From positions 134,074-198,073 of the forward strand of contig NZ_BBXC01000017.1 of the NCBI RefSeq assembly GCF_001570525.1: 64,000 bases of DNA. Direction: 5' to 3'. Of this stretch, positions 40,555 to 61,732 are shown one piece after another. Numbering within the stretch: position 1 is the first letter of the stretch; every line of letters starts with the position of its first letter. The notes below the pieces were generated by a model. That model saw only the letters and a list, made by a program, of their open reading frames with translations. It was not told the DNA's origin and did not search any database. The translations under genes were made by a program, and so were the position numbers. This DNA is from Herbidospora sakaeratensis (GTDB lineage Bacteria > Actinomycetota > Actinomycetes > Streptosporangiales > Streptosporangiaceae).

Positions 40555-41217
40555 ATGGGCTGGATCTTCGGTACGAACAAGGCTTCCATGGTGAGCGCCG
40601 ACAACGCGCTCCCCGGGCGGTCCGTCACCATGCCGGTGACCGACCGGCACCTCGTCCTGGGGAGTACCCTCACCCCGCCCTGGCCCGAGGGCGCGGAGGT
40701 CGCCGACTTCGGGCTCGGGTGCTTCTGGGGCGCGGAGCGCAAGTTCTGGCAGACGCCCGGGGTGTTGTCGACGGCGGTCGGCTACCAGGGCGGGTACACG
40801 CCCAATCCGACCTACGAGGAGGTGTGTTCCGGGCTGACCGGGCACACCGAGGCGGTCCGGGTCGTCTTCGACCCTTCCCAGGTCTCCTACGAGGAGCTCC
40901 TCAAGGTGTTCTGGGAGGCGCACGACCCCACGCAGGGAATGCGGCAGGGGAACGACGTCGGGACGCAGTACCGGTCGGCTATCTACACGCACTCGGAGGC
41001 GCAGGAGAAGTCGGCGGCGGCTTCGCTGGCGGCTTACCAGGAGGTGCTTTCCGCGGCGGGGTACGGGGAGATCACTACTGAGGTGCGGGCGGCGCCGGAG
41101 TTCTTTTACGCGGAGGATTACCACCAGCAGTACCTTCACCGCAACGTTAACGGGTACTGCGGGATTGGCGGGACGGGTGTCGCTTGTCCTGTTGGTCTTA
41201 CTTCTGGTGAGGCGTAG
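40555..41217 (+). CDS. msrA: Peptide methionine sulfoxide reductase A
   Basis: A 220-residue enzyme that repairs methionine-S-sulfoxide. The catalytic cysteine is Cys56 in [14 protein letters not shown]; resolving cysteines are Cys202 (NGYCGIGG) and Cys211 (VACPVG). [19 protein letters not shown] is the other signature. AGGAGGT precedes the ATG. The 3' end is the target of the downstream island: the last 15 codons are repeated at 61595 and in altered form at 50357 and 51253. Codon use turns AT-richer over the last 40 codons, consistent with a replaced 3' end. Confidence 0.96.
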
Positions 41218-41310
41218 AGCTGCGGCTTTAGCCTGAACTGCTGGCCCTTGGTCGGCTTCCCTTGGGGAGCTGATCTTGGGCCAGATGTGTTTTCGGCGAC
41301 GAGTTTCTCT
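41173..41310 (+). repeat. Type A att-like direct repeat, left copy (msrA 3' end)
   Basis: 138 bp starting ACGGGTGTCGC inside the msrA codons for TGVA and running about 93 bp past the stop. It matches 61595-61732 with 16 differences (about 88 percent identity, counted by eye). The likely recombination core is GGTGTC. Confidence 0.8.
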
Positions 41311-41463
41311 ACAAGGTCAAGGGCGGCTCGCTTCGCTCACCGCCCCGGTGTGGCTCAGCGCATCGGCGTGCGGCCTCTTCGGGCCGGCTGCTGCGCCGAC
41401 AGGCTGCAGAGCTGCAGCCAATCGGAATTCGTTGTGAGTGCTGAGAAAGGTCGTCTGGTTCCT

Positions 41464-42417
41464 TTAGCCAAGGTCCCATACTGCTGTTTCGTAATACCCC
41501 TCCGGAACCAGTTCATCGAATGCTCGCAGGAGGGGGTAACCCAAGTCTGGCTCAACAGCGGCGATGTAGCACGCCCAACCCATCAAGCGATTCCGATACA
41601 TCTCCTCATTCTCGCCTCCGAAATCTGACATATAGGTGTCGTAGCCGAACTTTGAAATCATATGCAAGATCCATCGCATCCGGCGCTTTATCTTGCGCGG
41701 GATTCGTGGCCTACCCGATTCTCCGACATACAAGCCAGTAACGTATTGTGGGCCGCCACGACGCATAAAAGCGGTCTTGCGCGTGTTTACCGACCAGCCA
41801 GTGTCGTCGAGAATGCGGCCAATATTTTCCGAGTGACGGTCAGTGATCTCGCCGGAGAATGTGAGATCGTCTACATAGCGCGTAAAGGACAAGTCTTCTG
41901 ACCGTGCGTAATCGGAAAGAGAGCGGTCCGTGCTCAAGAAGGCTAGGTTGGATAAGAAGGGCGACGTGCTTAGGCCGATTGGCAGCCTGCCACCGATAGT
42001 AACGAGGCTAACGGCAATGTCTGCGGCCTTTTCTTCATAACCCTGATCTTGCAGTAAAGCCTTAACTGTTGTTGCACTAATCGACGGAAAGAAATCCTCA
42101 AGGTCCATGCGCAGAACACACTCTTTTGCGAGGTGCTGGCTGGCATTGCTGACCACAGAACGCCCGCGAACAAATCCATGAACATGCTCTGGGGCCTTGT
42201 ACGGAAGCAGTGTAGTAAAGCTCCGGTTCAAGTTCTTGCTGATCGCATCGAACGGACTCGCCGGCTTAATTACTTCTCTTATTCCGCCGTGCTTCTTGCG
42301 AAATGTTCGCTGAAAATAGAGCCGCCCAGCACCCGTAGGTAGAGACGAGGATAGCTTTTGTAGAGCTTCAGCCGATACGCCCGCGTGCTCAGCCAGATCA
42401 TCAACTGAGAATGGCAC
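41464..42417 (-). CDS. Retron-type reverse transcriptase
   Basis: A 317-residue reverse transcriptase. Retron marks are all present: NASQH (residues 91-95, the NAxxH motif), the catalytic DLEDFFPSIS (105-114), GLSTSPFLSNLAF, the active site FTRYVDDLTFSG with YVDD at 181-184 (retrons more often have YADD), and the VTG triplet at 226-228 followed by the basic RIPRKIKRRMR. No maturase or endonuclease domain, so it is not a group II intron protein. GTG start with GGGGG upstream. The candidate template RNA and a DUF3800 gene lie directly upstream on the same strand. Low GC. Confidence 0.9.
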   Translation of the reverse strand: MPFSVDDLAEHAGVSAEALQKLSSSLPTGAGRLYFQRTFRKKHGGIREVIKPASPFDAISKNLNRSFTTLLPYKAPEHVHGFVRGRSVVSNASQHLAKECVLRMDLEDFFPSISATTVKALLQDQGYEEKAADIAVSLVTIGGRLPIGLSTSPFLSNLAFLSTDRSLSDYARSEDLSFTRYVDDLTFSGEITDRHSENIGRILDDTGWSVNTRKTAFMRRGGPQYVTGLYVGESGRPRIPRKIKRRMRWILHMISKFGYDTYMSDFGGENEEMYRNRLMGWACYIAAVEPDLGYPLLRAFDELVPEGYYETAVWDLG

Positions 42418-42446
42418 TAGTGCCCCCGCGTAATAGAGGTGTCAGA

Positions 42447-42525
42447 CGGTAGGGTCGCACTCGTGTCCAAAGGCCATCACGCAACGCACGCGAACTCGCG
42501 CACAAGGTTGACCGCGACCCTACCG
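42447..42525 (-). ncRNA. Candidate retron msr-msd RNA
   Basis: The 129-nt gap between the DUF3800 stop and the reverse transcriptase start contains, on the coding (minus) strand, CGGTAGGGTCGC (42525-42514) and its perfect complement GCGACCCTACCG (42458-42447), 12 bp enclosing 55 nt. Inside is a strong hairpin at 42503-42486 (GUGCGCG-AGUU-CGCGUGC with wobble pairs). Position and long closing stem fit a1/a2 or the msd stem; the exact ends and branching G are not determined. Confidence 0.5.
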
Positions 42526-42546
42526 CAGGCGTGATCGTATCATAGT

Positions 42547-43248
42547 TCAATGAAGAGCGTCTTTCCGGCTAGAGATACGACCCTGCTCAAACGAGTAGAG
42601 CACAGAAATAGAAGGTTCAATCTCGCGAAATGCTCTATAAGGCCAGTCTTTTGGACTCGTGGTATTTCCCGCTTGGAGCCATCTACTTACAGCTGCCATG
42701 GAATAGTCGATGATGGCCGTAGACATGTAGTCAGACTTGGCGACCATTGCGATCTTCAGTTGCGGCAAGGGTGCAACTTTGCCGATCGTTTTGTAGGCTC
42801 GCCTGGAGGCGCTATCGGAAAGTCGGGAAATGATTGAACCCATGCCCTCGCTCTGCTCAATGTAGCAAAGCAGCTCGGGTTGATCTCGATGTCGGATCAA
42901 TAGGTCACTCAGCAACTTTACGTACATGAACTCGATTCGTTCGGATTCTGTCCCGCCCGGAACGCGCGTTCGATTAGTAGTGACCATGTATGTCCTAAAG
43001 AAAATATTCCGCATGAGCTCTAGAAATTGACTGGAAACCTCCAATGGGTCGGTCGAGCTATGAAAACCTTTCTTGCGAAATTCTTCAAATCCGGGAAGTC
43101 CGACCAGGTTGCTCCTAGCGCATAGGCGCTTATATAGATTCTGAATCTGCTTTTCTGTATCATCCGCATTCGTTCCAAGTTCGACCGCGCCGACGATCAG
43201 TGGCTGGGAAGTATTCCCGTTTCCTGACTCGTCCATGAAGAGCTTCAC
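42547..43248 (-). CDS. DUF3800 domain protein, probable retron effector
   Basis: A 233-residue protein opening with KLFMDESGNG, the acidic strand of DUF3800, followed by QPLIVGAVEL; DUF3800 has an RNase H-like fold with predicted nuclease activity. A later acidic strand (LLCYIEQSEGMG, about residues 135-146) and KSDYMSTAIIDYSMAAVSRWL (about 181-201) supply further candidate active-site residues. First gene of the retron cassette. DUF3800 proteins are, to my knowledge, one of the accessory classes found with retrons, so a role as defence effector is inferred. GTG start with AAAGG upstream. Confidence 0.82.
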   Translation of the reverse strand: MKLFMDESGNGNTSQPLIVGAVELGTNADDTEKQIQNLYKRLCARSNLVGLPGFEEFRKKGFHSSTDPLEVSSQFLELMRNIFFRTYMVTTNRTRVPGGTESERIEFMYVKLLSDLLIRHRDQPELLCYIEQSEGMGSIISRLSDSASRRAYKTIGKVAPLPQLKIAMVAKSDYMSTAIIDYSMAAVSRWLQAGNTTSPKDWPYRAFREIEPSISVLYSFEQGRISSRKDALH

Positions 43249-43696
43249 CGTGTTAGCCTTTCAAGAGTCCCGGCCATGGCGCTGCCAGGCCGCCTGTGTT
43301 TGTCACCCACTGTCGACGGTTGTGGGGGCCGCGCTTTCATCCGAGATTCGTTAACTCTACATTCTGTCATTGGCGACATCCAGAATTTCTCGAATTATTT
43401 GGCCTTCCCTCTTCCTGTCACGAAGGTGCAGGACGGATAGAGTTACCAGCCGTGTAGGTAAGGCCGCCGGATATTTGAGCCGTCGGCAATGGGCTGCGGC
43501 CGCCAACCGACCTCCGGCAGCACCCGAGCCAGCGAGCGGTTCAAGACGATCGCCATTGGCGATCATCACTGGCCCTCAGCCACTCCCGCTGTGAGCAACT
43601 GTCCACAAGCAAGATCGAGGACTCCGGGGATTGTTCGATGCCGGGTGGACTTCCTTAGGTCCTCGACCGCACGACTAGTCCCTGACCACGAGACCC
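43249..43696. other. 448-bp stretch without a supported gene
   Basis: Probably carries the retron promoter on the minus strand close to 43250-43360 (TAGAGT near 43355). A 70-codon minus frame at 43357-43569 lacks recognisable sequence. A palindromic GATCGCCATTGGCGATC lies at about 43547. Confidence 0.4.
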
Positions 43697-43957
43697 TCAC
43701 ATAGGGCCAGGTTCGGATAGCTCCGTCCACTCGGCATCGGTCATTGCTGCTAGTCCTTCGCTTGCGGCCACCTCGTCTAACCATGCTCGGCTCAGAGAGC
43801 CTGACTGCCGCACGCATTCAACTGCAAGACGAGAGCGGACCATCCACGCCACGAGACTTCCCGTGACCTGCAACACCCGCTGCACGGTCTCAAGATCGGG
43901 CCGCTGGTCAACATCGCTGATCGGGACATTCCCGTGATTGGTATACGGCACGATCAC
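43697..43957 (-). CDS. Small hypothetical protein coupled to the upstream gene
   Basis: An 86-residue acidic protein, not recognised (MIVPYTNHGNVPISD, then VQRVLQVTGSLVAWMVRSRL, ending WTELSEPGPM). Its start overlaps the stop of the 155-residue gene by 4 nt, which implies a common transcript facing the XRE regulator. Mostly helical by inspection; possibly a regulator partner. Confidence 0.65.
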   Translation of the reverse strand: MIVPYTNHGNVPISDVDQRPDLETVQRVLQVTGSLVAWMVRSRLAVECVRQSGSLSRAWLDEVAASEGLAAMTDAEWTELSEPGPM

Positions 43958-44421
43958 TGATGGGTCCTTCCTGATTCCGGTCGACCCCTCGAAGCAAGCC
44001 CGCCATCGGCTCTCGCCGCATCCAGATAGCCCGGCACATGCGATGCGGCCAACTCGGCCGAAGGGACAGTCACTTCCCGACGACCTTCATCGCCGCCCCA
44101 GGCTCTGACGATGTAATGTCCGCTCAGCTCGGCTAGGTGGATGGTCGCCGATGTTGCGCCCATCGAGTCGAAGGCCACCAGTTCGGGAGCCTCCCAGGCC
44201 AGCGGAGCAGTGAGCGATGACGAGCCCGGGAACAAGATCAACCGTACGGTTCTGGTCTGGTAGCAGCACACATTCGCGCGAGCTAGCAACTCACAGACCG
44301 CCCGCAATGCCATGTACTGCCTGTCCGCCGGTGCATCCGCTGCGGGTGAGCATCCCTCTACTGGGACGAGCATCCGCTGGGAGGCGGCTACATTGCGTAA
44401 GTGGTGCGCTTGATCAGGCAT
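43954..44421 (-). CDS. Hypothetical protein divergent from the XRE regulator
   Basis: A 155-residue protein of unknown family. A Cys-containing helical first half (ALRAVCELLARANVCCYQTRT) is followed by beta-like strands (TVRLILFPGSSSLTAPLAW, HYIVRAWGGDEGRREVTVP). The ATG at 44421 is chosen because GGAG lies 7 nt upstream; the frame is open to 44532. It is transcribed away from the XRE gene and coupled to the 86-residue gene. XRE genes of this type often control such divergent neighbours. Confidence 0.65.
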   Translation of the reverse strand: MPDQAHHLRNVAASQRMLVPVEGCSPAADAPADRQYMALRAVCELLARANVCCYQTRTVRLILFPGSSSLTAPLAWEAPELVAFDSMGATSATIHLAELSGHYIVRAWGGDEGRREVTVPSAELAASHVPGYLDAARADGGLASRGRPESGRTHQ

Positions 44422-44549
44422 GATCTGCTCCGGGGTTGACGGGCTCGCGCCTTCCCCCTGAGATTGCCTTTGGGCGTCACACTGGTTCAATGCGATCGGC
44501 CGGAACCGGGATTGCCGTTTGTCGTCAATCACTATGACGTGAGGCGGAA

Positions 44550-45500
44550 ATGACGAAGATCTCAGCGGAGCGACGACGCGCCATCGAACGTGAAGCGAGG
44601 GAGATCATGCACGACTCTCTCCGTCGTGGCCTTGCGACAGAAGAGACGGTGGATCGCATATTGCGCGCCGTTCCTGACCTGCTGCCCCTCGAAGCGTGGC
44701 GATTCGCGAACGGATGGACTCGCGGCGAAGTCAGCGCGCGACTCGACCAGCTCTACCAGTCGGCCGGCCTCGCGCCACCCGGTATCGACCAGGCGTCCAT
44801 ATGCCGATGGGAGCACGGAGAACGACGGCCCAGCGACGAGAGGATCGAATACCTCTGCCGTCTCTACCGCACCCGTCCCGACAAGCTTGGTTTCGGGATC
44901 GATCACAGCCCAGCGGACGTCGGCCACATCGAGCGGGTGGGCATCATCGACGCCTACTCCTACACGAGCCAGGCTTCCGAGGGAGATCTGATCTCCCGGG
45001 TACAGGCCGCCAGGCAGCGGATCAACATGTTCGGTCTGACCCGGAACTTCTATCGCCGAGACGGCATCCTTCCGATCTTCGAGGAGAAGTCGGCACACGT
45101 CCCCGTCCAGATCTTCGTGATGGACCCCTACTGCGACTCCCGTCGTGACCGCTACCGGATCGAGCCGTCCGAGGCTGCGATGGAGGACCCCGAGAGGTAC
45201 ATCCGGGAGATTCTCCGGCCACTGCATCAGTCGATGCTCGTCCACCCGAACCTCAAGGTCTTCACGTACAACTTCCCCTGCTCGTTCGCCATCGAGGAGA
45301 TCGACGACGTCTGCCGCGTCATGCTCTACGGGCACGGAAAGCGCGGTACTCAAGGGCCTGTCATCACGTTCAGCGGGGAGACCTCCGCGTACAACTACTT
45401 CGTCGACCAGATCCGTTGGTTGGAACGGCTCGCTGCCGAGGACGGAACTCCTGAGCCGTGGGCTAGCAAGGACATCGTCGTTCGACTGCTCGATTTCTGA
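44550..45500 (+). CDS. XRE-family regulator with C-terminal DUF5919-like domain
   Basis: A 316-residue protein. Residues 47-115 carry the helix-turn-helix (WTRGEVSARLDQLYQS, ASICRWEHGERRPSDERIEYL). From about residue 128 a second domain begins (RVGIIDAYSYTSQASEGDLI, INMFGLTRNFYRRDGILP, VPVQIFVMDPYCDSRRDRY, VMLYGHGKRGTQGPVITF); the order fits the DUF5919 domain of actinobacterial XRE proteins, which resembles a phospholipase D-like fold. Ligand unknown. GAGGCGG precedes the ATG. Confidence 0.8.
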   Translation: MTKISAERRRAIEREAREIMHDSLRRGLATEETVDRILRAVPDLLPLEAWRFANGWTRGEVSARLDQLYQSAGLAPPGIDQASICRWEHGERRPSDERIEYLCRLYRTRPDKLGFGIDHSPADVGHIERVGIIDAYSYTSQASEGDLISRVQAARQRINMFGLTRNFYRRDGILPIFEEKSAHVPVQIFVMDPYCDSRRDRYRIEPSEAAMEDPERYIREILRPLHQSMLVHPNLKVFTYNFPCSFAIEEIDDVCRVMLYGHGKRGTQGPVITFSGETSAYNYFVDQIRWLERLAAEDGTPEPWASKDIVVRLLDF

Positions 45501-45740
45501 TGCGCTCCGCAGGGGGCTCCGGCTCCGGGAGCATCGAGGCTCAGCAGCTCTGGTCTTGGGGATGGCTGAGGTGGCGGCCGGTCTCCCTGCCTGCCGTCGC
45601 CCAGGGCAAGCCAGCAGACCAGCCGCACGAGGTCAAGGCAAGCTCCACGATCACGACAAACGCCGTGAGCCTTGACCCCGCACGTCCGGCCCGCTCCCCG
45701 GAGGGGTGGGCGACGGCAGACGGGAGACCGGCGAACCAAT

Positions 45741-46337
45741 ATGTGCTGCGCTGAACTCGCGCTGCTGTCGGTCCGAGGTGGACGTTTCGGCCTCACCGAT
45801 AGGCTGCTCATCGTGGTGGAGCACTCCGACAGCGAAAGCCAGCCATGGGTATCGACTTTGGGCGGGCCACTCATCGTCATTCCAGAATCAGCCTGCCGCC
45901 ATTGGAATGGCGGACTACTGATGAAGCACCCCGACGATGAAGGAGACTACCGCCGGGCCTGCGACGTGAACGGCTACATAGGGCTCATCGATGTGGGACC
46001 AGCCAAAGCCCTCGTCCTCGGTGACGGTCCCGCCGACACCACATTTCTGGCCGGATCGAATCTCTTCGTCCGTTGGATCGCCGCGGACTCTCCAGCCCAG
46101 ATTCTGCACGCCGCTAATAAGGCGACCGACTCAGCTCGGTGGGAGGAGGAACTGACCTGGGACGTCCAAGGGCCGGTGATTCTCTTCGACTCTGTACTCG
46201 GTTATGAGGACCTCGCCACCGAGGAGCACATCCGTGTAGAGCTTCCACCGGGGCACTACACCGTTCGCGCGGCTTACATCCAAACCGAGAGGGTGTGGAC
46301 GGTCGTTGTGCAGCTTGTCCGCGACCTTCCTGCCTGA
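45741..46337 (+). CDS. Imm21-like immunity protein, orphan
   Basis: A 198-residue protein with the Imm21 pattern: WVSTLGGPLIVIPESACRHW (residues 34-53), GDYRRACDVNGYIGLIDVG, ALVLGDGPADTTFL and LFVRWIAADSPAQILH. Imm21 proteins neutralize toxins of polymorphic toxin systems. No toxin gene stands next to it, so it may protect against toxins from relatives. The 240 bp upstream holds no gene. Confidence 0.75.
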   Translation: MCCAELALLSVRGGRFGLTDRLLIVVEHSDSESQPWVSTLGGPLIVIPESACRHWNGGLLMKHPDDEGDYRRACDVNGYIGLIDVGPAKALVLGDGPADTTFLAGSNLFVRWIAADSPAQILHAANKATDSARWEEELTWDVQGPVILFDSVLGYEDLATEEHIRVELPPGHYTVRAAYIQTERVWTVVVQLVRDLPA

Positions 46338-46674
46338 GAAGTGCCTCCAAGAGACCAGCTTCACACGCTGTGTCACGCGCGCATCCGAGTCTGACTAACG
46401 GATCAGTCTTCGATCTTTCCGATTGCCAGGCGGCGGCGTGCCGCACCGCCGTACTCGGCCCTTCGCCGCCTGTCGTCCGGGCTGCGGCCTGGGGGCCGGT
46501 CCCGGACGACGCGGCATGGGCCGTCCTCCGACCGGCGCGACCGCCGTTGCCTAACGGTCGCGCCGACCTCAGCGACACGCCGCCGCCCGGTGGGACGCGC
46601 AGCCGCCGGCCCCAACCGCTACGCGGCCCTTCGGGTGCTTCGCATTGGCGCCGGCCGCTCCGCTCCGCAGTCGT
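46338..46674. other. Non-coding stretch downstream of rep with a perfect inverted repeat
   Basis: CGGCGCGACCG (46533-46543) and CGGTCGCGCCG (46555-46565) form a perfect 11-bp inverted repeat with an 11-nt loop. No T-run follows on either strand. It may be part of the replication origin or a transcription barrier. No coding frame is supported. Confidence 0.45.
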
Positions 46675-48090
46675 TTAGACCTTCTGGCGTTCGTTCTCCC
46701 GCTTAATACGTCGAGCCGTGGAGACTTGTTGCCGGGCGATCTCCGCCCAGAAGTGTTCACCCTCACTCAGCCCGCTTCCGGCATAGCGCCACTGCGATAC
46801 CGCCACCGTTTCTCGGCCGTTCAGTAGCAGTCCTGAAGCTGCGCGGGCGAACTCGGCTCGGTAGTCGGCGCGGGCCTGGCGGAGCGCGCCCAAGGTGACG
46901 GAGTAGTGGCGTGACTTGGTCGAGAAGTGGCCCCGGTAGCCGAGCATGTGTGACCACTGTTTGAGTCGCAGGTGATCGAAGCCCGGCAGCGTCGAGAGGG
47001 CCCAACAGGTGTAGATCATCCTCCGGGCGTGCTCGCTCACCCTCAGGTCTTCGATCTGGATGGGCTCCTTGACCGGCCGGTCGACGGTCCCGGCTGACTC
47101 CGCCCCCTTAGTGGCGTACTTGGCGATGTAGGCCGCCACCCGGCCGTCGGACATCCCGCCCAGTTCGGCGCTCACGTAGACCGGCTGCACGTCGAGCTGC
47201 TTGCCCCACCGCAGGGTGACACCCGGCCGGTTGTCACCGCGGACACCGGTCGAGGCGGTGACGGTCACTTGTTCGGCAGTGCTCCGGATGGCCTCTTCTA
47301 GTAAGGGGACGGTCGCCCAGGAAGGCGGAGGATCCCCAGGACCGTCCGGGCCGTCGAGACGGATCACGGCATGGAAGTGGACCAGGCCGCGCGTCTGGTA
47401 TTCGGCAACCTTGGCGTAGGACACCCGGAGCTGCCGCCGCAGGTCCGCCCGGGAGACCCCGCGTTGCCGAGCCAGCACGGCGAGCAGGTCACGGGTGAAA
47501 TGCCGCCACAGCTCACCCGCGTGGGCGTTCCACAACACCGCACCCGAGTAGTCGTAGCAATCGACGCAGATGGGCTGCCCGAGCCGGGAGTCGTTCTCGC
47601 CATGACGAACCCGGCACCCTCTCGGCCGCCCATGCGTGCACAGCGGATCGTCCCGCCGGGGACGGCACGGCAAGGTCTTGCCGTCGCGTTCGCGTCGAGC
47701 ATGCACCGAGCCGAATGACGGCGCGGTGAAGGTGGCGAACATCCGAGGATGCGCGCTGACTTCATCCGGTACGCCCTTGCCGCCCTGCAACCCGGAGATG
47801 ATCAGATGGAAGGTGTCGTCCCGGTACACCTCCGAGCAGGCCGGGCACCGGGAAGCGCGCCGGTTGCCGCACGCCGTGAGCAGGTAGCCGGTCGGCTCGT
47901 CAGCTGTTCGGTAGGACTCGACCACCTCACCGGTAGGCACGTCGACCGTGTAGCGCTCGCCATGCAGCCGGATCGGCTGACTACATCCGCCCGTGGCCTT
48001 GATCATCTGCCGCCAGCGGGAGAAGTCTGGCATCGCTGCACGTCGTACGGCTGCCAGTACGTCGAAGGACAGAGAAGGCACGTCGTTCAT
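46675..48090 (-). CDS. repSA: Replication initiator protein, RepSA-type
   Basis: A 471-residue rolling-circle initiator like that of the actinobacterial integrative element pSAM2. Zinc-like cysteines occur in CGNRRASRCPACSEVYRDD and CRVRHGE...ICVDCYDYSGAVLWNAH; the metal-binding HUH-type strand is VHFHAVIRLDG, and GRVAAYIAKYATKG holds the tyrosine region. The ATG at 48090 follows GGGAGG and overlaps the stop of the small upstream gene. It would replicate the excised circular form. Confidence 0.85.
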   Translation of the reverse strand: MNDVPSLSFDVLAAVRRAAMPDFSRWRQMIKATGGCSQPIRLHGERYTVDVPTGEVVESYRTADEPTGYLLTACGNRRASRCPACSEVYRDDTFHLIISGLQGGKGVPDEVSAHPRMFATFTAPSFGSVHARRERDGKTLPCRPRRDDPLCTHGRPRGCRVRHGENDSRLGQPICVDCYDYSGAVLWNAHAGELWRHFTRDLLAVLARQRGVSRADLRRQLRVSYAKVAEYQTRGLVHFHAVIRLDGPDGPGDPPPSWATVPLLEEAIRSTAEQVTVTASTGVRGDNRPGVTLRWGKQLDVQPVYVSAELGGMSDGRVAAYIAKYATKGAESAGTVDRPVKEPIQIEDLRVSEHARRMIYTCWALSTLPGFDHLRLKQWSHMLGYRGHFSTKSRHYSVTLGALRQARADYRAEFARAASGLLLNGRETVAVSQWRYAGSGLSEGEHFWAEIARQQVSTARRIKRENERQKV

Positions 48091-48284
48091 GTGGCCTCCC
48101 CGCCCGGGGAGGCGTCGCGCTTGACGCCGTTCGTGATGCGGACGCTCAGGACGGTGGCGACCCGTCGCCATTTCTCCTCGGACCAGCGTGGAGAACGGGC
48201 GGCTTGTCGTCTGCCCCACTCCCGAGCAGACACAGGACCGGGTTCAGAGTTCAGGTGGGCTCCTTTCCTCGTGGGCGGAGCCAC
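48087..48284 (-). CDS. Small basic protein upstream of and coupled to the rep gene
   Basis: A basic protein of up to 65 residues whose conserved-looking core is SAREWGRRQAARSPRWSE followed by RRVATVLSVRI. The stop overlaps the rep ATG by 4 nt. Start is uncertain: GTG 48284 opens the frame, but the strong AAAGGAG lies ahead of a CTG at 48254, and a GTG occurs at 48233. Small proteins of this kind often precede rep in actinobacterial elements; function unknown, possibly excisionase or replication helper. Confidence 0.6.
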   Translation of the reverse strand: MAPPTRKGAHLNSEPGPVSAREWGRRQAARSPRWSEEKWRRVATVLSVRITNGVKRDASPGGEAT

Positions 48285-48684
48285 CGCCGTACCGGGCGGG
48301 TCGCGACGTGCATCACCGACGCCGAGGCAGCCTGAAGACAGCTCTTGGCGATGGTGAGCGGCAGCGAGAGATCAGAAATGGAGTGCGGCGAGAGTGGGGA
48401 TGGCGCTCTCTGGGTGGACACCTACCGCCGGGCCGGGTCTCTCCGGCGGATCATCGGTGATCAGTTCGTGGTGTTGTGCCCGGTCTCTTGTATGCGCCTG
48501 AGTGGTTCGCCGAGATGCTCGCTGTGCCGTGCCGTGGGGAAGACGATGGCTTCTTGCGTTGCTTCGTTTGTACCACTCCGGCGAGCGTTGATGCAGGTCA
48601 CGAGATGTGAGGCAGGGATGTCCCCTGACGTTCCGTGGCGTCCCCCTGCGTCCCCTGATGCTCCTAGACGTCCCGCTGCCTATG
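48285..48684. other. Intergenic region between rep unit and integrase terminator
   Basis: About 400 bp with no supported gene. It likely contains the promoter of the rep unit on the minus strand. Repeated CGTCC/CGTCCC elements occur at 48625-48680. Confidence 0.4.
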
Positions 48685-48729
48685 AGAAAAGAAAGGGAGC
48701 TGTGGCCAGTTGGTGAGGCCGTAGCTCCC
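48685..48729 (-). terminator. Terminator of serine integrase 1
   Basis: On the minus strand GGGAGCT...GGCC (48729-48717) pairs with GGCC...AGCTCCC (48707-48695), followed by TTTCTTTTCT. Confidence 0.8.
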
Positions 48730-48754
48730 TGAAGACGTCCTCGGACGTCCTGCG

Positions 48755-50263: not shown

Positions 50264-50302
50264 GGAACCCCCTCGCATGAACTATTGCGGAGAGGCTAGT
50301 AC

Positions 50303-50428
50303 TACCACCAGCAGTATTTGCACAAGAACGTGAATGGATACTGCGGGATCGGCGGGACGGGTGTCAACGCAGGTGACCCGTCTAACTGGTGCCCTACGGG
50401 GCTGACCAGTTCCTCTTCCGAAGAGTAG
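50303..50428 (+). pseudogene. Detached msrA 3' end (type B)
   Basis: Without a start codon, the frame reads [20 protein letters not shown], then VNAGDPSNWCPTGLTSSSEE and a stop. The first half matches msrA residues 190-208 almost exactly but with different, AT-richer codons, so it comes from another genome. The C-terminal tail differs from the resident one yet keeps the resolving Cys-Pro. Confidence 0.8.
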
Positions 50429-51376: not shown

Positions 51377-51384
51377 ATTGTGCC

Positions 51385-51697: not shown

Positions 51698-52276
51698 TCA
51701 CCCGGTTTCCGGCCAGGTCCCGTCGGGGATGCGATACATGGTGCGGGTGGATGTGAACCACTCCTGATCGAGAAAACGTCCCGTGATCCGGCCCGCCATG
51801 CACAACATGAGGTGCAGGTTCCGTCGGTCGTCCTCGCCGAGTTCCAGCCCGTCGGTATAGGCCAGGTAATCGGGGAGATCCATGTGTCCCTCCTCGTCCG
51901 GCGGCCCGGCGTAGCCGAGTTGCCGGCCGTCGTAGTAGAGATACAGCCCCTCAAGGAGGTAGCGGTCGTCGTCGTACCGGACCTGGAAGACCCGCCGCTT
52001 CCCCAGGTTGCGGATGGCGGGGTGATAGGGATAGAGGCCGAAGGCGAGGACGTGTGTCCAGCCTGGCGCGTGCGGGCCGAGCCAGACCGTGTCCGCCGGT
52101 CGTCCCTGGTAGAGGTCGATCAGTGTGCCGAGATCACACTCCTGCCGCGTTTTCTCGTCCACCCGGAGAAGTCTCGCCACCTCCTCCGGGTCGTCGCTTT
52201 CGACCCAGAGCCCATGGAAGTAGTAGCTCAGGTCATACTCGACGAGCAGATCCCACTGGTCGTGCACGGGAAGCAT
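51698..52276 (-). CDS. Candidate immunity protein for the adjacent secreted nuclease
   Basis: A 192-residue acidic soluble protein, not recognised: WDLLVEYDLSYYFHGLWVES, then LGTLIDLYQGRPADTVWLGP and RVFQVRYDDDRYLLEGLYLY. It follows the giant secreted gene by 90 bp on the same strand, and acidity, size and lack of a signal peptide fit immunity proteins of polymorphic toxins. The role is inferred from position only. Confidence 0.6.
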   Translation of the reverse strand: MLPVHDQWDLLVEYDLSYYFHGLWVESDDPEEVARLLRVDEKTRQECDLGTLIDLYQGRPADTVWLGPHAPGWTHVLAFGLYPYHPAIRNLGKRRVFQVRYDDDRYLLEGLYLYYDGRQLGYAGPPDEEGHMDLPDYLAYTDGLELGEDDRRNLHLMLCMAGRITGRFLDQEWFTSTRTMYRIPDGTWPETG

Positions 52277-52366
52277 GATGCCGCCTTGTGTCGGGTTGTG
52301 AACTTGTGTCGGGTCGTGAAGGGGTTGCCGGGCGGTGACCCGGCAACCCCGCTCAGACGAGTGACG

Positions 52367-55300: not shown

Positions 55301-58300
55301 AACACCATTCACCAGCTGTGACGGGGTCACCTGGAAGGCCCCGACCGTCGGGTTCGGCACGTCGACTGTGGCCGCCAGCCAAGCCGACCAAGCCGAGGTG
55401 GTGCCCGCCACGACGTTGGCCGCACGGGCCCGCCAGCGGACCCTCCACCCGTCGACCAGATTCCCGGCCGGGATGGCCACGGTGGCCTGCCCGCCGGAGG
55501 TGACCGTGCCCGAGGAGCCCGTCCAGATCTGGCCGGTGCCCTGCCCGGTCACGGCCGGGTCGTGCTCGACCTCGAACTGACCGGTCAGGTTCGCACTGGC
55601 GACGTCGGTGACGGTGCCGGACAGGCTCGGAGTGAGGGAGGTGAGCGTCGTGACGCCGTTCACCACCTGTGCCGGGGTGGCGGTCAGCGCGCTGACGACC
55701 GGCGCCGAGGTGACCGTGGTGACGGTCAGCGTCGGGGCCGGGCCGTAGCCGAACCAGTCCTCAGTGGGCGAGAAGACCCGGTAGTTCTCCGTCGTGCTCG
55801 ACTCGTTGGGGTGCATCAGCACCAGGCCGTGGTTGGCCGCTCCGGCCGCCCAGTCCTGGGCGATGCCGGTGACCGTCCATTCCATTGGCCCCGTGCCTGC
55901 CGAGCACCCCTCGCCCTTCCCGGTGAACGAGGTCTGGGCGTCCTCAGTCGTCGTGGCGGGCTTGTTGCCCCACAGCAGGTTGTTCTGGCTCCAGGTGCTG
56001 GTCAGGCGGCGGACCTGAATTCCGGCGCCAACCGTGGTCCCGCAGCCGCTGGAGTCGAAGTTGGTCAGCGCCAGTTTCGCGTTGGTGACATTCGCCCCGG
56101 CCAGGCCGGTCGTGGTGAACCGCAGGTGCACCCGGCCGAGTTGCCCGTCGAACCGGCCCGCCATCAGATAGGGGGCCGAGGGGTCGGCGGGAACAAAGAG
56201 GTTGTCCTCCGACCACACGTCGACGTCATTGGTGAGCGTCAGCGTGGTGGTCGGATCCACTCTCACCGGATACCTCGTCTCCGGATCGGACAGGAACGCG
56301 TGGTCCGGCTTGAGCACGAGTTCGGTCCGCCCGTCCTTCGTGACGACCTCGGTAGCGATCTTCACGCTGTCGGCCCGCTCGGCGATGGCCTTGTTCTTGG
56401 CCTCCCACATCACTGGCTGCGGCGCCGACGCCACCGTCTTTTTCTTTCCAGTACGGCTGGTCAGCAGCAACCGGCCGCCCTTGTCCTCCGACAACGTCAA
56501 CCCGCCGGTGTCCACCCCGATGCGTAACTCCAGCGGTTTCTCCGGTCGTTCTCGCAGCACCACGTCGTGGCGGAAACCGGTCGGCAGCACGGTCACCACG
56601 AGGTCCGCGCCCTTGCCGGCCGCGTCCGGGTAGGTGGCGACGTTCTTCTCTACCGTCGGACGGGGAAGCGGCGTCGGCCAGCGCAGCGAATAGGACTGCC
56701 CGTCGGCGGTGGTCATGGACACGAAAGCGCCCGTCCCGCCGTTGGCGACCGTCAGAGCGAAGCCCGAGTCGACCGCCTTGGGCGCCAGCGCCCCGTTCCG
56801 CTCGACCAGCGTCGGGTCGATCGGCACCCACACGTCGCCCTGCCTGGCCCGGACCGGCCCGGCCGTGACCTCGGTCGTGTACGTCTTCCCGTCAGGTTGC
56901 GCGTAGGTGATGCTGGTCGGTGTCGTCTCAGCGGCCACCTCCACGGCCTTCCCCTGCCCGGACGCCGTCCGCGAAGCGGCGACCCGTGCCTGCGACGGCG
57001 TGTTGGAGACGGCGGTCCCGCTCTTCCCGGCGATCCACGCCGCCGTGTCGTTCAGGCTCGCATGATGATCGTTCCCGGACGTGTCGGCCGCCGTCGCGCC
57101 CTCTCCGTCATCGAACGTCCACTGGCCTGCGGCCTGCGCGACCGTCGTAAAGGACCAGGTCCGGGGAGACATCATGTTGTCCCACAGGTCCGTCGCCCCG
57201 GTGACGACGGCCTTGTAGGTCGTCCCCGGTCGCAGTGCCTGCGCAGGGGTGAAGGTCACCTCGGTCTCGGTGCCGTCGTACCCGAGGGTGCCCTCGACCT
57301 CGGTGCCGTCGGCGTCTTCGAGGATCACCTCGGCGCCGGCGACCGGCTCGTGGAAGGCGACCTTCAGTGTCATGTCGAGCGGCACCTCGACGGCACCGTC
57401 CGCGGGTTCGGTCGAGACCACCTGTGGTGCCCGGGTGTCCTCGCCTCCGCCCTCGTATCCCTCCGTGCCGATGTCGAGCTGATCCGTCTCAACCTCGTAG
57501 GCGTCTCCCTGACGTTGCCCTGAGATCTGGCCACCGAGTTCGTCGCCGATGGTTATCTGCTCATTCTCCCCGGGTTCGTAGATCGATCGGGCGATGGCGT
57601 CCTCGTACGAGGGGAAGCTCGTGATCGGATCGGGTGAGGTGAAGAAGAAGTCCTTGATGACCGGTTGGACGGGGAGTTCGAAGTCGACCGTCAGGATGGG
57701 CGGGTGGAGCTGCCCCTTGCAGGACTCCAGCGGCGTGGTCCGGCACCCACCCGCCTCGTCGGAGCGGTAGCGGCGCCAGTTCCGCAGGTCCGACTCGTTC
57801 CCGGCGGTCAGCCGGATGCCGTAGTTGGTTGCACCATCCACCCACGCTTGGACGATCTGGTTGAGTGAATGCGTCAGGTCCCAGGCGTAGGCCATCGAGC
57901 CGGTGCAGTCGTCGCCGTAGGCGCCGAATTCGGTGTCGGCGCCCGCGTTGGTGACCGATGGCTGGGTGTTCCAGTGGAGTGTCGTCTCCTCCCAGTCGGA
58001 GGTGATGCGACTCGCGGTGATCCCGGACCCGACAGAGGTCCCGCAGGCGTTGGACTGGTAGTTCCACAGGTTCAGGTCGGCGTTCTCGACCGTGCTGCCG
58101 GCGAAGCTATCGGGAATGTCGGGGAACTTGAGGTAGCCACGCCAGCGCTTCGCGATGTTGCTTGAGTAGGACTTGCCGACCACGATCTGGTCCTGGGTGA
58201 AGGTGTCCCAGCTGTCCTGGTAGTCAACGTCGTTGATCCAAGTGTCCATGCCGCCGTTGACCCAGTCGCCAGTGTGCCCTTCATACCAGTCGTCTGCGGC

Positions 58301-59215
58301 GGCGGTCAGCGTCACCGGGTAAGTGACCAGCGGGTCGGACAGGAACGTGAGGTCCGGGGTGAAGACCAGGGTGGTGCCGTCGTCGTCGAGAGTCACGCTC
58401 GCGCGGCCGACCTTGCCCGAGTCGAGCGCGCCCTGGGAATCGGCCGCCCTGGCGTCCCGCATCAGCGTGGGCCGCACCGTGGTGACCGTCCGGTTGTCCT
58501 TGCCCACGATCGCCGGCCGTCCCGCGGTGTCCTCGGTGAGTGACAGGCCTTCGGGCAGGTCGAGCGGAACGCGGAAGGAGACGGGGGCGGTGGGCCGTTG
58601 CCGGATGACGATCTCCTGCTGGAATCCGGTCGGGGTCGCGGCCACCAGCAGGTCCCGGCCCTGCCCGTAGGCGTCCGGATAGGTCGCGGTGTTGCCCTTC
58701 AACTTCGGAGCGGGCAGTGTCGACGGCGTGGAGATCTGCACGTCGGCGCCGGCCGCCCGCGCCTTGATCAAGGTTCGGTCCTGGCCACTGGACAGCGTGA
58801 GATCTCCGGTCGCGGCTTTCGGCCTGATGGCACCGTTCGCCGCCACCAGAGTGGTGTCGATGGGCGTGAAGCCCTTACCGTCGGCGGTCCTGACACGGAC
58901 GGGTTCGGTGTGCACCTCCATCCGGACGGTTCTGCCGTCCGGATTGGCGTAGTAGGTGGCGCTCTCGGAGCGCATCGACTCGATCTCGACGCGCCGGTTG
59001 TCCATCTTGGCCTGAGCCAGGGCGAGCCCGACCGGGGTGTCGAGGGCCTTCTGCGGAGTCATGGGATCGGGTGCGGATGGTGGTGGAGGGGCAGTGGCGC
59101 CCTCGGCTTTCGCGGGCGCGCTCATCAGCGAGAGGGATAGCGTCAGAACGGTGATCAGGGCCGCCCGGCGGCGCGTCCGGGCGATGAAGCCCAACGCTGA
59201 TCGTGATGTTTTCAC
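52367..59215 (-). CDS. Giant secreted multidomain protein with C-terminal NucA/NucB-type nuclease domain
   Basis: A 2282-residue exported protein. Signal peptide: residues 1-38. Two long related blocks (about 60-520 and 770-1190) each end in a DNRLRE-like jelly-roll (WRGYLKFPDIPDSFAGSTVE; RVHLRFTTTGLAGANVTNAK). Between them is an Ig-like domain (APQVVSTEPADGAVEVP, about 600-700). Four Fn3-like repeats of about 100 residues follow (TALTATPAQVVNGVTTLTS, DGWRVRWRARA), then a LamG domain (about 1660-1800). The C-terminus has FQCDEYPFASTEQGA near residue 2212, the NucA/NucB DNase motif. Probably a contact or secreted toxin. GTG start behind AAGGTTGGA. Confidence 0.85.
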   Translation of the reverse strand: MKTSRSALGFIARTRRRAALITVLTLSLSLMSAPAKAEGATAPPPPSAPDPMTPQKALDTPVGLALAQAKMDNRRVEIESMRSESATYYANPDGRTVRMEVHTEPVRVRTADGKGFTPIDTTLVAANGAIRPKAATGDLTLSSGQDRTLIKARAAGADVQISTPSTLPAPKLKGNTATYPDAYGQGRDLLVAATPTGFQQEIVIRQRPTAPVSFRVPLDLPEGLSLTEDTAGRPAIVGKDNRTVTTVRPTLMRDARAADSQGALDSGKVGRASVTLDDDGTTLVFTPDLTFLSDPLVTYPVTLTAAADDWYEGHTGDWVNGGMDTWINDVDYQDSWDTFTQDQIVVGKSYSSNIAKRWRGYLKFPDIPDSFAGSTVENADLNLWNYQSNACGTSVGSGITASRITSDWEETTLHWNTQPSVTNAGADTEFGAYGDDCTGSMAYAWDLTHSLNQIVQAWVDGATNYGIRLTAGNESDLRNWRRYRSDEAGGCRTTPLESCKGQLHPPILTVDFELPVQPVIKDFFFTSPDPITSFPSYEDAIARSIYEPGENEQITIGDELGGQISGQRQGDAYEVETDQLDIGTEGYEGGGEDTRAPQVVSTEPADGAVEVPLDMTLKVAFHEPVAGAEVILEDADGTEVEGTLGYDGTETEVTFTPAQALRPGTTYKAVVTGATDLWDNMMSPRTWSFTTVAQAAGQWTFDDGEGATAADTSGNDHHASLNDTAAWIAGKSGTAVSNTPSQARVAASRTASGQGKAVEVAAETTPTSITYAQPDGKTYTTEVTAGPVRARQGDVWVPIDPTLVERNGALAPKAVDSGFALTVANGGTGAFVSMTTADGQSYSLRWPTPLPRPTVEKNVATYPDAAGKGADLVVTVLPTGFRHDVVLRERPEKPLELRIGVDTGGLTLSEDKGGRLLLTSRTGKKKTVASAPQPVMWEAKNKAIAERADSVKIATEVVTKDGRTELVLKPDHAFLSDPETRYPVRVDPTTTLTLTNDVDVWSEDNLFVPADPSAPYLMAGRFDGQLGRVHLRFTTTGLAGANVTNAKLALTNFDSSGCGTTVGAGIQVRRLTSTWSQNNLLWGNKPATTTEDAQTSFTGKGEGCSAGTGPMEWTVTGIAQDWAAGAANHGLVLMHPNESSTTENYRVFSPTEDWFGYGPAPTLTVTTVTSAPVVSALTATPAQVVNGVTTLTSLTPSLSGTVTDVASANLTGQFEVEHDPAVTGQGTGQIWTGSSGTVTSGGQATVAIPAGNLVDGWRVRWRARAANVVAGTTSAWSAWLAATVDVPNPTVGAFQVTPSQLVNGVTTTTSVTPALHTTVTDPAAQQVRVDFVVEHDPAATGQGAGQIWAGNVGGVASGTQASLTVPAGTLTDGWRVRWRVRAVNTATTVASPWSDWQSLAVDEPDPVSEPAVTALQITPSEQVGDGIVTSSRAPSLLVQVNDPAGKPLRAEAEIEHDAVQVWTGGVDDAPAGTQAVIAVPAGTLTDGWQVRWRARAVSATAQSAWSDWQSFTVVVPKPTATALTITPSKVVDGATVLTMLTPTLRAVVTHPTGQPLRAEAEIEHDGAQIWTGGVDGVASGAQAAIPVPGGELTDGWTVRWRLRAVTDQAPSPWSDWQQATLDVTQPGEEPLAQTADPVIQTDQSFTAAAWLRWSDKDGDYSVAEQRGTHQAPFRLGNEAHHGLVFTFTSGDVADAAVEGVLSDVEAPVDEWFHLAGVYDAEAGAASLYLNGNLVKTSPVTFTPWHADTAMTLGTRMRGDLDEVEIYQRPLASAEVAALLPAPAAQDPPITPDTRRAAAAAPYIPAFKYRHPSLEDCLATASSGRFVDSYSRMQDRPYNACWTAWIGYTGWEEKDDGDGKDHKPASWSKLVPKQLKIPLALVNLLHPGDVFSFRATWVAHSYLANNTGREIYNGGDSTDGMKPQDMKFWLKLSDFGIYNTGIRRSELDDELDDVLIRIGLETSSECAITSGAPSQLKTIESWRSGYSPFTISTSQPTAPKDRATCSIMPAITAYEGKQGKLRLWDQEILGSKGERLGVVRWGHGVPPNNLNAPSFRCDWRQAGLFGEQHKGGCVNIRADRVFTMSKSKNKNFLPVINHIETALNQNENAGTFPPFRPGDTTDDRDDVKYPPIRGPLGNERKKIISGNYAKPSNTPEGYALWRGSDGNEKTNRKIFSSHSVYVPQEDFSIVGTTGNYCKYYFKHLYDDNADGAFQCDEYPFASTEQGAAKDRIHYSVRAVHTSYNQNHGDALQAFYGQYRVIPYDPERTPTKVSDNPFWVKIVD

Positions 59216-59298
59216 TCCAACCTTTCGAACATATGTGGCAAAACGGAGTGATCATCACATGGTTTTGGATACTTGTAAAGATCATTCTTGTGGTGACT

Positions 59299-59520
59299 TG
59301 GTCCGTGGTGTCCGATTTCTCGTCGGTGGACGTGATGTAGCGCCGTGGACTGATGGATGCGCTGGTGGTTGAACCGGTCGACCCACTCGGCGGTGGCCAG
59401 TTCGACGTCGGCCAGGCCTTTCCAGGGCTTGCGGGGTTTGATCAGTTCGGTCTTGAACAGGCCGATCTGCGATTCCATCAACGCGTTGTCCAGGGCGTCG
59501 CCGACAGTGCCGATCGAAGC
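59299..59520 (-). pseudogene. IS3-family transposase (orfB) C-terminal remnant
   Basis: The minus strand reads ASIGTVGDALDNALMESQIG, LFKTELIKPRKPWK, LADVELATAEWVDRFNHQRI: the last third of an IS3-type integrase-core transposase including the DNAxxES glutamate. No start, no upstream catalytic aspartates and no orfA. Confidence 0.8.
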
Positions 59521-59984
59521 GTCGATCTTGGCTTCGAACAGATCTGCTGGGCAATCAGAGCCAGTGCAAGTGGCCGCTTGACACCGCGCGGGAGCCTCGC
59601 TGGGACAGATAAGGCTACGAATGCCGTATTTGACGACTGCCAGGGGATTCGGCGCATGGGCGGTGCGGGCCGCGACCGGCCGAAGAGCCGCAGCGCGGCC
59701 CGCGACCGCCGACGCGCGCCGGACCGCCGCAGGCGGGCCGGCCTTGAAGACGTACAGATATTTTTCTTTCTGATCATGCTGAGCGCAGCGTGTAGCTACA
59801 TGGGACGTCTGCTGGTCTGAGACGTCCTGATGTCGTCCCGGCGTGTGGTCGTGCTGCTTGTTGCCCAACTCTCATCCTCTATGTGGAGCCATACAGAGAG
59901 GAGTACGAGAAGGGAGGCAAGCATGCGACGAAGGGAGCAAGTACGTAGGCGTTGCCAGCGAGGCTGGGCAGAGGTTCCTGCTCG
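59521..59984. other. Non-coding stretch upstream of the giant gene
   Basis: About 460 bp with no recognisable gene. It contains a compositionally odd GC-rich tract (59660-59740) flanked by AT-rich sequence (ATATTTTTCTTTCTG near 59756). Confidence 0.35.
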
Positions 59985-60146
59985 GTGGCGGAAGTGACTG
60001 AGGAACTGCGGGCCAGGGTGGCTGCTTCTCGGGCGGCTCAGGGGTTGCCGCCGGTTATTGAGGATCTTGCGGTGTTGGAGCGGGTGGCGGCGGTGTTCCG
60101 GCTGGTTGGTGATGGGGAGTCGGGGCGCCGCCTGGTGGCCGCTTAG
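59985..60146 (+). CDS. 53-residue protein convergent with serine integrase 2
   Basis: A short helical protein with ELRARVAASRAAQGLPPVIE then DLAVLERVAAVFRLVGDGES. Similar small proteins accompany integrases of actinobacterial elements; the function is not known. GTG at 59985 with GAGG upstream. Its stop overlaps the integrase stop by 4 nt. Confidence 0.65.
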   Translation: MAEVTEELRARVAASRAAQGLPPVIEDLAVLERVAAVFRLVGDGESGRRLVAA

Positions 60147-61567
60147 GCGATCCAGTCGAAGGTGAAGCGGTCGGGGTCCCACCTCTTGCGTGGGTTGGCG
60201 GGGGCGACTGAGATCGTGCGTACGGTGGCGGCGACGATCGCGCGTTGCTGGGAGACGTTCATCGCTTTCCACCGGTTGAGCATCTGTTCGGCGGTGCCGA
60301 TGAAGGTGATCAGTGGTGAGTGGCGGGAGAGGCCAGCGAGCTCGGCGCGGTTCTTCTCCAGGCGAAGGTCGATCGGGGCGCGGGCGGCCATCCATTCTTT
60401 GCGACTGATTTCGCGGGTGGCCCATGCTTCGGCGAGTTCTTCAAGCTGCTCTTCGTCGGCGCGGACAAGTTCGGCGAGGTTGTGGTCGTCCCCGGTCTGG
60501 CTGCGGATGCGCTGGGCCAGGGTTGGGGAGTCGAGCGCGGTCAGCAGCATGTCGCGGACATGGTCGTCGGTTCGGGCGGTGTTGGTGGCGATGCCGCCGC
60601 AGGAGCCGCTGCCGGGGACATTTGGGCAGACGTAGCGGGGGACTCCCGTGCGAGGACGTCCGTTCATGCGGTGCCCACATCGGCCGCAGCGAAGGATGCC
60701 GGACAGTAAATAGGTGCGTCCTGTGGCGGACTGGCGGCGGTAGTCGCGGGCCGGGTCGTTGAGCAAGGCGCGGAGCCGGTCGGAATCCACTGCGGTGATG
60801 ATGGCGGGCCATACGGCCTCGGCGACGATTTCGCCGAGAAGCGGCCGGGTGGTCTCAGAAGTGCTGCGCGGAGTGTGCTCGCGTCGGCCACTGATCCGCG
60901 CTGAAGCAAGTAACCGCCGCAGCGTGGTGGGGATCCAGTGCCTGTCGGCGGGTGTACGTACATCACGCTGCTCGAAGTCACGGCAGATGCTCGACAGCGA
61001 TTCGCCGGCCAGGGCTCTCCGAGCTGCTTCCCGGATGATCGCCGCTTCTTCCTCAATGACGGTTATGCGATCGTCGGCGTAGCCGTACGGGCGCAATCCT
61101 CCTCCGGAGACCTTGCCCGCTTCGGCGTTCTGTCGTCGCTGCCGCTTTTGACGTTCTGCTTTGTGCTCTGCTTCGTGGCGGGCCGCTGCTCCGAGCATGC
61201 GGGCGATGAGGCGCCCGGTCGGTGTGCCGAGGTCGATTTCCCCGGTGACGGTGGCGAGTTCGATACCGCGTTTGTCGGCCAGGTCGATGACGTCTTCCAG
61301 CTCGCGAGGGGAGCGTGTCAGTCTGTCGACGTGCCAGCACACGATCGCGTCGACCGCACCGGCGTCAATGTCGTCCATGAGGCGTCGCCACGCAGGGCGC
61401 GGGCTGCCGGAGTAGGCGCTCACGTCGTTGTCCGGGTAGACGCCGACGATGTGCCAGCCCTTGCGCTCGACCAGAGCGCGGCAATCGGCCTCTTGGCGGG
61501 CGACTCCCAGACCTGCGCCCGCTCGATCCTGGCTGATCCGGCAGTAGATCGCTGCACGTCTCGTCAT
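60143..61567 (-). CDS. Large serine recombinase (integrase) of segment 3
   Basis: A 474-residue serine integrase. AAIYCRISQDRAGAGLGVARQ holds Ser12; IVCWHVDRLTRSPRELED and GRLIARMLGAAARHEAEHKAER complete the catalytic domain. GGLRPYGYADDRITVIEEEA starts the recombinase domain, RTYLLSGILRCGRCGHRM with VPRYVCPNVPGSGSCGG forms the zinc ribbon. The start lies 28 bp from the core at 61595, so that junction is probably its attR. It is only distantly like the integrase of segment 1. Confidence 0.93.
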   Translation of the reverse strand: MTRRAAIYCRISQDRAGAGLGVARQEADCRALVERKGWHIVGVYPDNDVSAYSGSPRPAWRRLMDDIDAGAVDAIVCWHVDRLTRSPRELEDVIDLADKRGIELATVTGEIDLGTPTGRLIARMLGAAARHEAEHKAERQKRQRRQNAEAGKVSGGGLRPYGYADDRITVIEEEAAIIREAARRALAGESLSSICRDFEQRDVRTPADRHWIPTTLRRLLASARISGRREHTPRSTSETTRPLLGEIVAEAVWPAIITAVDSDRLRALLNDPARDYRRQSATGRTYLLSGILRCGRCGHRMNGRPRTGVPRYVCPNVPGSGSCGGIATNTARTDDHVRDMLLTALDSPTLAQRIRSQTGDDHNLAELVRADEEQLEELAEAWATREISRKEWMAARAPIDLRLEKNRAELAGLSRHSPLITFIGTAEQMLNRWKAMNVSQQRAIVAATVRTISVAPANPRKRWDPDRFTFDWIA

Positions 61568-61594
61568 GGGTCACATAGATACACGCTCGTAGGA

Positions 61595-61732
61595 ACGGGT
61601 GTCGCCTGTCCTGTTGGTCTTACTTCTGGTGAGGCGTAGAGCTGCGGCTTCGGCCTGAACCACTGGCCCTGGGTCGGGTCCCTGCGGGGAGCTGATCTCG
61701 GGCCAGACGTGTGTTCGGCGACGAATTTCTCC
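61595..61732 (+). repeat. Type A att-like direct repeat, right copy (displaced msrA 3' end)
   Basis: Begins ACGGGTGTCGCC and encodes [14 protein letters not shown] and a stop, then 93 bp of msrA downstream sequence. It is GC-richer than the copy at msrA, as expected for the original chromosomal end now separated from its gene by the island. Confidence 0.8.

Follow-up and report, generated by a model that had tools for sequence, protein, structure and literature searches.

The 3' end of msrA as a probable attachment site for two serine-integrase systems and an apparent hot spot for toxin-antitoxin cassette arrays

Several classes of mobile element, as set out in the parts of the sources cited here, gather at a single chromosomal site. 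In the staphylococcal and enterococcal cassette chromosomes (SCC/ECC), large serine recombinases use an attB that lies in the 3' part of rlmH, a conserved coding gene, direct repeats of ~50 bp serve as att sites, and inverted repeats occur in attR and in the circle site (PMC6222049). Units that lack an integrase, lie between att sites and stack beside an integrase-bearing element have been described for cis-mobilizable elements (CIMEs) and integrative and conjugative elements (ICEs) (PMC5704250); short cassettes, many of them toxin-antitoxin pairs, make up chromosomal integrons, and integrase-less arrays exist (clusters of attC sites lacking integron integrases, CALIN; PMC8618304); and Rep-bearing actinomycete integrative and conjugative elements (AICEs) stack at one site in Streptomyces (PMC9513070). 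All of these features have counterparts at the 3' end of msrA in the 64,000-nucleotide stretch of Herbidospora sakaeratensis DNA analysed here (the window; G000:C17:134074-198073 of an 8.6 Mb genome). Overall, the best explanation is probably that this 3' end is an att site for two integrase systems, that its coding tail is swapped on insertion, and that it additionally heads cassette arrays built by a shuttle; the explanation draws on the anatomy of the locus, empty sites in relatives, arm motifs and recurrent cassettes, all observed directly.

In the window, msrA (40555-41217) is followed by three more same-strand copies of its 3' end, at 50303, 51250 and 61592. An earlier note on this DNA had described four such copies in one orientation bounding three inserts, and the direct-repeat families of the window bear this out: 41170-41309 pairs with 61592-61731 (140 nt, 89%), 50354-50434 with 51250-51330 (81 nt, 91%), and 41114-41181 with 50298-50365 (68 nt, 82%). 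The sequence ACSGGTGTC, which the note had taken as the core, is by itself weak evidence and hardly above chance; five matches occur in the window against 1.86 expected, at least five were reached in 3 of 100 shuffles, and the fifth match (47242-47250, minus strand) lies away from any msrA tail. The 68-140 bp repeats carry the weight instead. Each core had also been said to be fused to an msrA C-terminal end, which holds for the right side of all four copies, but the left side is msrA-like only at 41119 and 50303; the left arms at 51253 and 61595 are unrelated to msrA. ARAGORN found no tRNA gene in the window, so a tRNA target was dropped, and no Rfam RNA reached the gathering score in 41100-62600. 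The principal features are as follows.

40555-41217, plus strand: msrA, intact (PMSR, E 7.3e-63); its tail from ~41123 would be the right attP arm of insert A, with arm motif CGCAACGTTAACGG
41123-50306, no strand: insert A, 9.2 kb, absent as a block from L100, L101 and L105
48755-50278, minus strand: integrase A, a large serine recombinase (Pfam Resolvase and Recombinase)
50303-50428, plus strand: displaced msrA tail that ends NAGDPSNWCPTGLTSSSSEE, with a right arm of the integrase B type (sequence comparison)
50354-51250, no strand: middle insert, 0.9 kb, a HigBA cassette without integrase
51250-51330, plus strand: third msrA-tail copy, with right arm GTGACCC at 51269-51275 (integrase B type) and a left arm that fits neither integrase
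51251-61592, no strand: insert B, 10.3 kb, absent as a block from L100, L101 and L105
60143-61567, minus strand: integrase B, a large serine recombinase (Resolvase, Recombinase, Zn_ribbon_recom)
61887-62216, plus strand: ABM-family gene (ABM, 1.4e-22), directly after msrA in L101 (empty-site flank)

The comparison of empty sites that the earlier note had proposed gave a positive result. The inserts were removed from the window by script, and the joined sequence was aligned to the msrA loci of relatives, of which L100-L105 are same-genus genomes. With all three inserts removed, the window aligned to L101 in one block of 1274 bp (91.4%); with inserts A and B removed and the HigBA segment kept, it aligned in one block to L105 (2256 bp, 92.8%) and to L100 (2208 bp, 93.6%). 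L100 and L105 thus have the middle insert but neither A nor B, and the middle insert is missing from L101. L103 and L104 hold much of insert A (window 43676-51279; 43676-50365 with a gap), with a different left end. An integrase gene beside the attachment site and an empty attB in relatives, both expected of a serine-integrase element, were thus found. The two integrases are different, as the note had stated; both match Pfam Resolvase and Recombinase, and they are ~27% identical over the aligned part. The empty sites support the claim of site-specific accretion at a protein-coding target, and accretion of the three inserts at msrA via two different serine integrases is likewise supported.

We infer that two crossover points lie in msrA, ~48 bp apart; these exact points, and all of the enzymology discussed below, are deduced from sequence. 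Because the insert A arms sit 25 bp either side of TACC/ACCA, the integrase A exchange was placed in the His codon of YHQQY, at ~41122/41123 and ~50306/50307. Integrase B would exchange in the GTGV codons, at ~51250/51251 and ~61592/61593; its arms, GGGTCAC (61568-61574) and GTGACCC (51269-51275), correspond to positions 25 bp either side of 61592/61593. Each attP would then be 50 bp with inverted arm motifs, the right arm encoding a replacement MsrA tail. The empty-site joins agree with the chosen exchange points, and the far end of the integrase A element consists of a TTATTGC-type motif followed by msrA-like sequence from YHQQY on. The junctions concerned are:

41119-41147, plus strand: attL of insert A, TACCACCAGCAGTAC plus right arm CCGCAACGT; exchange probably at 41122/41123 (alignment, empty-site joins)
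50282-50316, plus strand: attR of insert A, left attP arm CTATTGCGG then TACCACCAGCAGTA; exchange probably at 50306/50307 (pattern match, 1 mismatch)
61568-61636, plus strand: right junction of insert B, left attP arm GGGTCAC (61568-61574), then msrA tail; exchange probably at 61592/61593

In order to compare this arrangement across the host family, in which 294 of 295 genomes contain msrA, 100 regions of up to 20 kb downstream of msrA, drawn from the matches listed in order of similarity to the msrA of the window, were sampled together with the window itself (101 regions); three genomes in which little sequence remains downstream of the gene (G183, G218 and G142) were passed over, and some sampled regions are short at contig ends. 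A profile built from ten tails and applied at a threshold of at least 13 bits gave 294 matches, all 294 on the msrA strand. Two or more sites were present in 76 of the 101 regions, with up to seven detected sites per region, and 180 segments were bounded; segment lengths and sites include weak matches of 13-20 bits, some of which are probably due to chance. At least 121 of the 180 segments contain no homologue of integrase A or B, and these, like the HigBA insert, correspond to a CIME in the sense of an att-bounded unit without integration or transfer genes. The MsrA tail is intact in 100 of 101 hosts, at 51 of 68 full array sites and at 32 of 86 partial array sites, and 44 different MsrA C-terminal ends were counted among the 101 regions. 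Within this family msrA is commonly targeted, and its 3' end is a family-wide hot spot with integron-like toxin-antitoxin arrays.

The two arms of integrase A were distributed very differently among these regions. The AT-rich right arm, CGCAAYRWWAACGG, was found in msrA in all 16 regions with integrase A in segment 1 (a fragment in one of them, L117) versus 8 of 85 others (Fisher p 4.6e-13, a nominal value because the genomes are related and hence not independent); the eight include L192, where the contig stops immediately, and L179, where integrase A relatives lie 7 kb on and no second site was detected. In 15 of 16 cases no other site came between msrA and the integrase A junction, the remaining junction being beside a remnant, and the right-arm motif was present at none of the 16 integrase A right junctions. 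The left arm, TTATTGC with at most one mismatch, was found at 14 of 16 integrase A sites and 41 of 68 full array sites, in none of the 101 host msrA genes, and in 61 of 20000 random windows. A TTATTGC-type pattern with at most two mismatches gave at least 128 matches in 60 of 341 host-family genomes, versus 3 for the reversed pattern; of the 128 matches listed, 93 are on a contig with msrA, and all 93 lie downstream, on the msrA strand and within 43 kb. In a class-wide sample, 9 of 394 genomes matched the pattern, seven from the host family and two others at two mismatches. Since many full array sites carry the left arm of integrase A but only 1 of 68 has the right arm, the array boundaries look attR-like. 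For integrase B, a tail bearing a GTGACC arm stands before six of seven elements.

The arrays are rich in toxin genes. A toxin from seven toxin-antitoxin families is held by 60 of the 72 segments of 600-1700 bp, a figure that describes content and no unbiased enrichment, since the toxin queries were drawn from the cassettes themselves; toxin density was 1.88 per 10 kb inside arrays versus 0.38 outside, and 99 of 113 toxins face in the msrA direction. Among 190 array open reading frames (ORFs), Pfam identified 13 ParE, 14 PIN, at least 6 Gp49 and 4 Fic, counts that are lower bounds because the ORF caller missed the window's own HigBA genes; the 142 control ORFs gave 4 PIN, and ParE, Gp49 and Fic were outside the 25 families listed, hence at most two members each. 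Segment clusters common to several regions, named from Pfam matches and from reading of the sequences, were HigBA (10 of the 101 regions), Phd plus toxin (9), Phd plus ParE/RelE (8), ribbon-helix-helix plus PIN (7), a second PIN (6), a third PIN (4), Fic (3), PIN plus helix-turn-helix (3) and others. Cassettes of one kind turn up in more than one genus, at other array positions and next to other neighbours, and homology extends more than 200 bp past the cassette boundary in only 2 of 151 pairs on the right and 4 of 113 on the left. In one pair from different genera (L129 and L151), cassette DNA is 91.8% identical versus 79.5% for msrA.

In the mechanism that we favour, the msrA 3' end would serve two or more serine-integrase systems whose crossover points lie next to each other. 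In each element, the right attP arm would be an in-frame substitute for the MsrA C-terminal tail, including its cysteine, such that insertion swaps the tail and the gene is kept; displaced tails would remain as same-strand repeats flanking each insert, and in related genomes the site would have gathered short cassettes, mostly toxin-antitoxin pairs. Serine integrases integrate by attP x attB, and recombination of attL x attR requires a directionality factor (part of PMC3783163). The arrays themselves could have been assembled by integrase A elements acting as a cassette shuttle, a step on which our own judgement is evenly balanced. An integrase A element beside msrA (attL) would excise against its own attR or against that of a downstream cassette, depart alone or with cassettes, and integrate with them in a new host; a later exit via its own attR would deposit the cassettes and restore a usable attB at msrA, and arrays without integrase would be the residue of departed elements. 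Such a shuttle would account for integrase A lying in segment 1 (true of 15 of 16 junctions), for the types of msrA tail and for the integrase-less arrays. More tentatively, and with rather more doubt than belief, msrA may head a serine-integrase counterpart of the integron, at which passing elements load, shuffle and unload toxin-antitoxin and defence cassettes, and at which the insert-supplied tail selects against imprecise loss.

Each cassette could instead be the remnant of an integrase-bearing element (a CIME), left by ordinary accretion and decay without any transfer specific to cassettes; both CIMEs and tandem accretion are known phenomena (part of PMC5704250), integrase fragments lie inside some arrays (L102, L117, L124), and later-position repeats score lower, weakly. 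We nevertheless consider this unlikely, as cassettes of 0.7-1.5 kb with the same genes and ends recur across genera beside different neighbours, which makes independent decay to one unit implausible, and as the right-arm motif should persist in msrA after decay but is kept in only 8 of 85 regions without integrase A. Alternatively, msrA-tail repeats might recombine homologously (through tandem duplication, gene conversion or uptake) and so build and move arrays without an integrase, given that the repeats are ~100 bp and similar and that no PF07508 large serine recombinase was found in G077, G166 and G216 of the 20 array-bearing genomes searched; the inserts, however, are foreign DNA with precise ends, and the TTATTGC-type sequence is conserved at array sites even though it lies outside the part that they have in common with host msrA, rendering this explanation quite improbable. 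The reading of the four cores as one attachment site, with exchange at ACSGGTGTC, can hardly be correct: the 9-mer does stand at all four copies and fits the exchange of insert B, but it is misplaced for insert A, for which exchange would occur ~48 bp upstream, the right end of insert A being msrA-like from YHQQY on and its arm motifs being centred on TACC/ACCA. The single core was dropped for these reasons, and integrase A appears not to use it. A tyrosine recombinase was also dropped as the array builder; among the matches listed for 20 genomes, no PF00589 protein was near msrA. The integrases found at msrA are of the serine type. In six larger segments (L132, L136, L139, L143, L166, L178), 10 ORFs at the right end, scanned for another recombinase, gave one DDE transposase and no site-specific recombinase.

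A number of observations weigh against an att site for two integrase systems with shuttle-built arrays. Excision, circles and recombination are postulated here, and arm symmetry, having been used to pick the exchange points, is no independent proof of them. The shuttle as proposed accounts neither for the origin of a first cassette nor for the movement of the HigBA insert, and it would need a directionality factor. The left arm of the HigBA insert (51220-51250, GCGCACCGGTG before the core) matches neither integrase A nor B, and a third integrase may be behind it; 27 of 68 full array sites are without a close TTATTGC; and no GTGACC arm precedes the integrase B element of L147, one of the seven. 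Of the 128 pattern matches listed, 35 sit on contigs without msrA in draft assemblies, and these are only possible pieces of the same arrays. In only 34 of 151 pairs do the cassettes resemble each other more closely in their DNA than the msrA genes do, indicating recent transfer for some pairs only, and the trend towards decay further from msrA is weak (by ordinal, rho -0.18, p 0.016; by distance, p 0.27). Finally, although insert A has the integrase and replication initiator of an AICE, no TraB/FtsK-type transfer protein was matched among the insert A ORFs scanned, a subset of all its ORFs, which makes its own transfer doubtful. The GCGCACCGGTG arm is also present in L100 and L105.

The remaining genes of the three inserts are:

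41464-42417, minus strand: retron-like reverse transcriptase (RVT_1; PADLOC RT_III-A 8.5e-64, RT_VII-A2 6.3e-62)
42547-43248, minus strand: DUF3800 partner of a type VII retron (PADLOC DUF3800_VII 1.8e-14; no Pfam match)
45672-46337, plus strand: Imm21-family protein (Pfam Imm21 4.9e-49)
46675-48219, minus strand: RepSA replication initiator, pSAM2 type (Pfam RepSA 3.9e-163)
50389-50910, plus strand: open frame with HigB-like toxin (Gp49 family, 1.9e-14); the gene probably starts near 50503, judging from L100
50907-51206, plus strand: helix-turn-helix antitoxin (HTH_31 6.6e-15)
52367-59215, minus strand: 2282-aa protein with Ig-like, CBM96 and NucA/NucB nuclease domains (domain search)

Three genomes of the genus differ in the cargo at the left end of insert A (window 41331-43676, L103:978-3025, L104:970-4180), a slot occupied by the retron-like reverse transcriptase and DUF3800 in the window, by the PADLOC candidate pair PDC-M02 in L103 and by an NB-ARC/TPR protein in L104. 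The closest named relatives of integrase A are in Herbidospora cretacea (98%) and H. mongoliensis (93%); a close phage source was dropped, all 239 of 239 phage records being below 60% identity, with 28.5% the best among the matches listed. Six of seven Streptomycetaceae relatives (L071-L077) are clearly near an msrA-like tail, mostly with a different left arm, and several relatives at 53-67% have no msrA-like tail nearby, so that part of the integrase family uses other targets. In L179, two integrase A relatives stand back to back (oriented 7253-9963), one of them stop-interrupted in G219. The 2282-aa protein of insert B has internal repeats of ~114 aa, and its secretion is a guess; an rve_3 transposase-type integrase core at 59212-59868 adjoins integrase B and is perhaps an insertion sequence remnant. 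A second integrase B relative (49% identity) lies elsewhere in the same genome (G000:C9:540776-542218, L099).

If the proposed mechanism is correct, integron-like cassette arrays arose with a different recombinase class and with the coding end of a housekeeping gene as array head. The locus would then offer a natural system for testing the capture and retention of toxin-antitoxin cassettes, as well as two serine integrases with short coding-sequence targets in actinomycetes, and part of the MsrA C-terminus variety would be explained. The literature searched, mainly freely accessible and top-ranked results, yielded neither msrA as an integration target nor serine-integrase cassette arrays. SCC/ECC integrate at rlmH with ccr genes, whereas the target here is msrA, with two integrase families at adjacent points and toxin-antitoxin units of ~1 kb in arrays; the ECC element compared is 32 kb (part of PMC6222049). 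The AICE hot spot illustrated is a tRNA-Arg gene, and msrA has no occurrence in the part of that text covered (PMC9513070). Unlike the units of CIME/ICE accretion, which are decayed elements that occur once, those of the msrA arrays are short and come back in different genera, and their boundaries are attR-like only. The integron integrase, in turn, is a tyrosine recombinase acting on folded attC, whereas the msrA arrays are associated with serine integrases and are headed by a coding gene.

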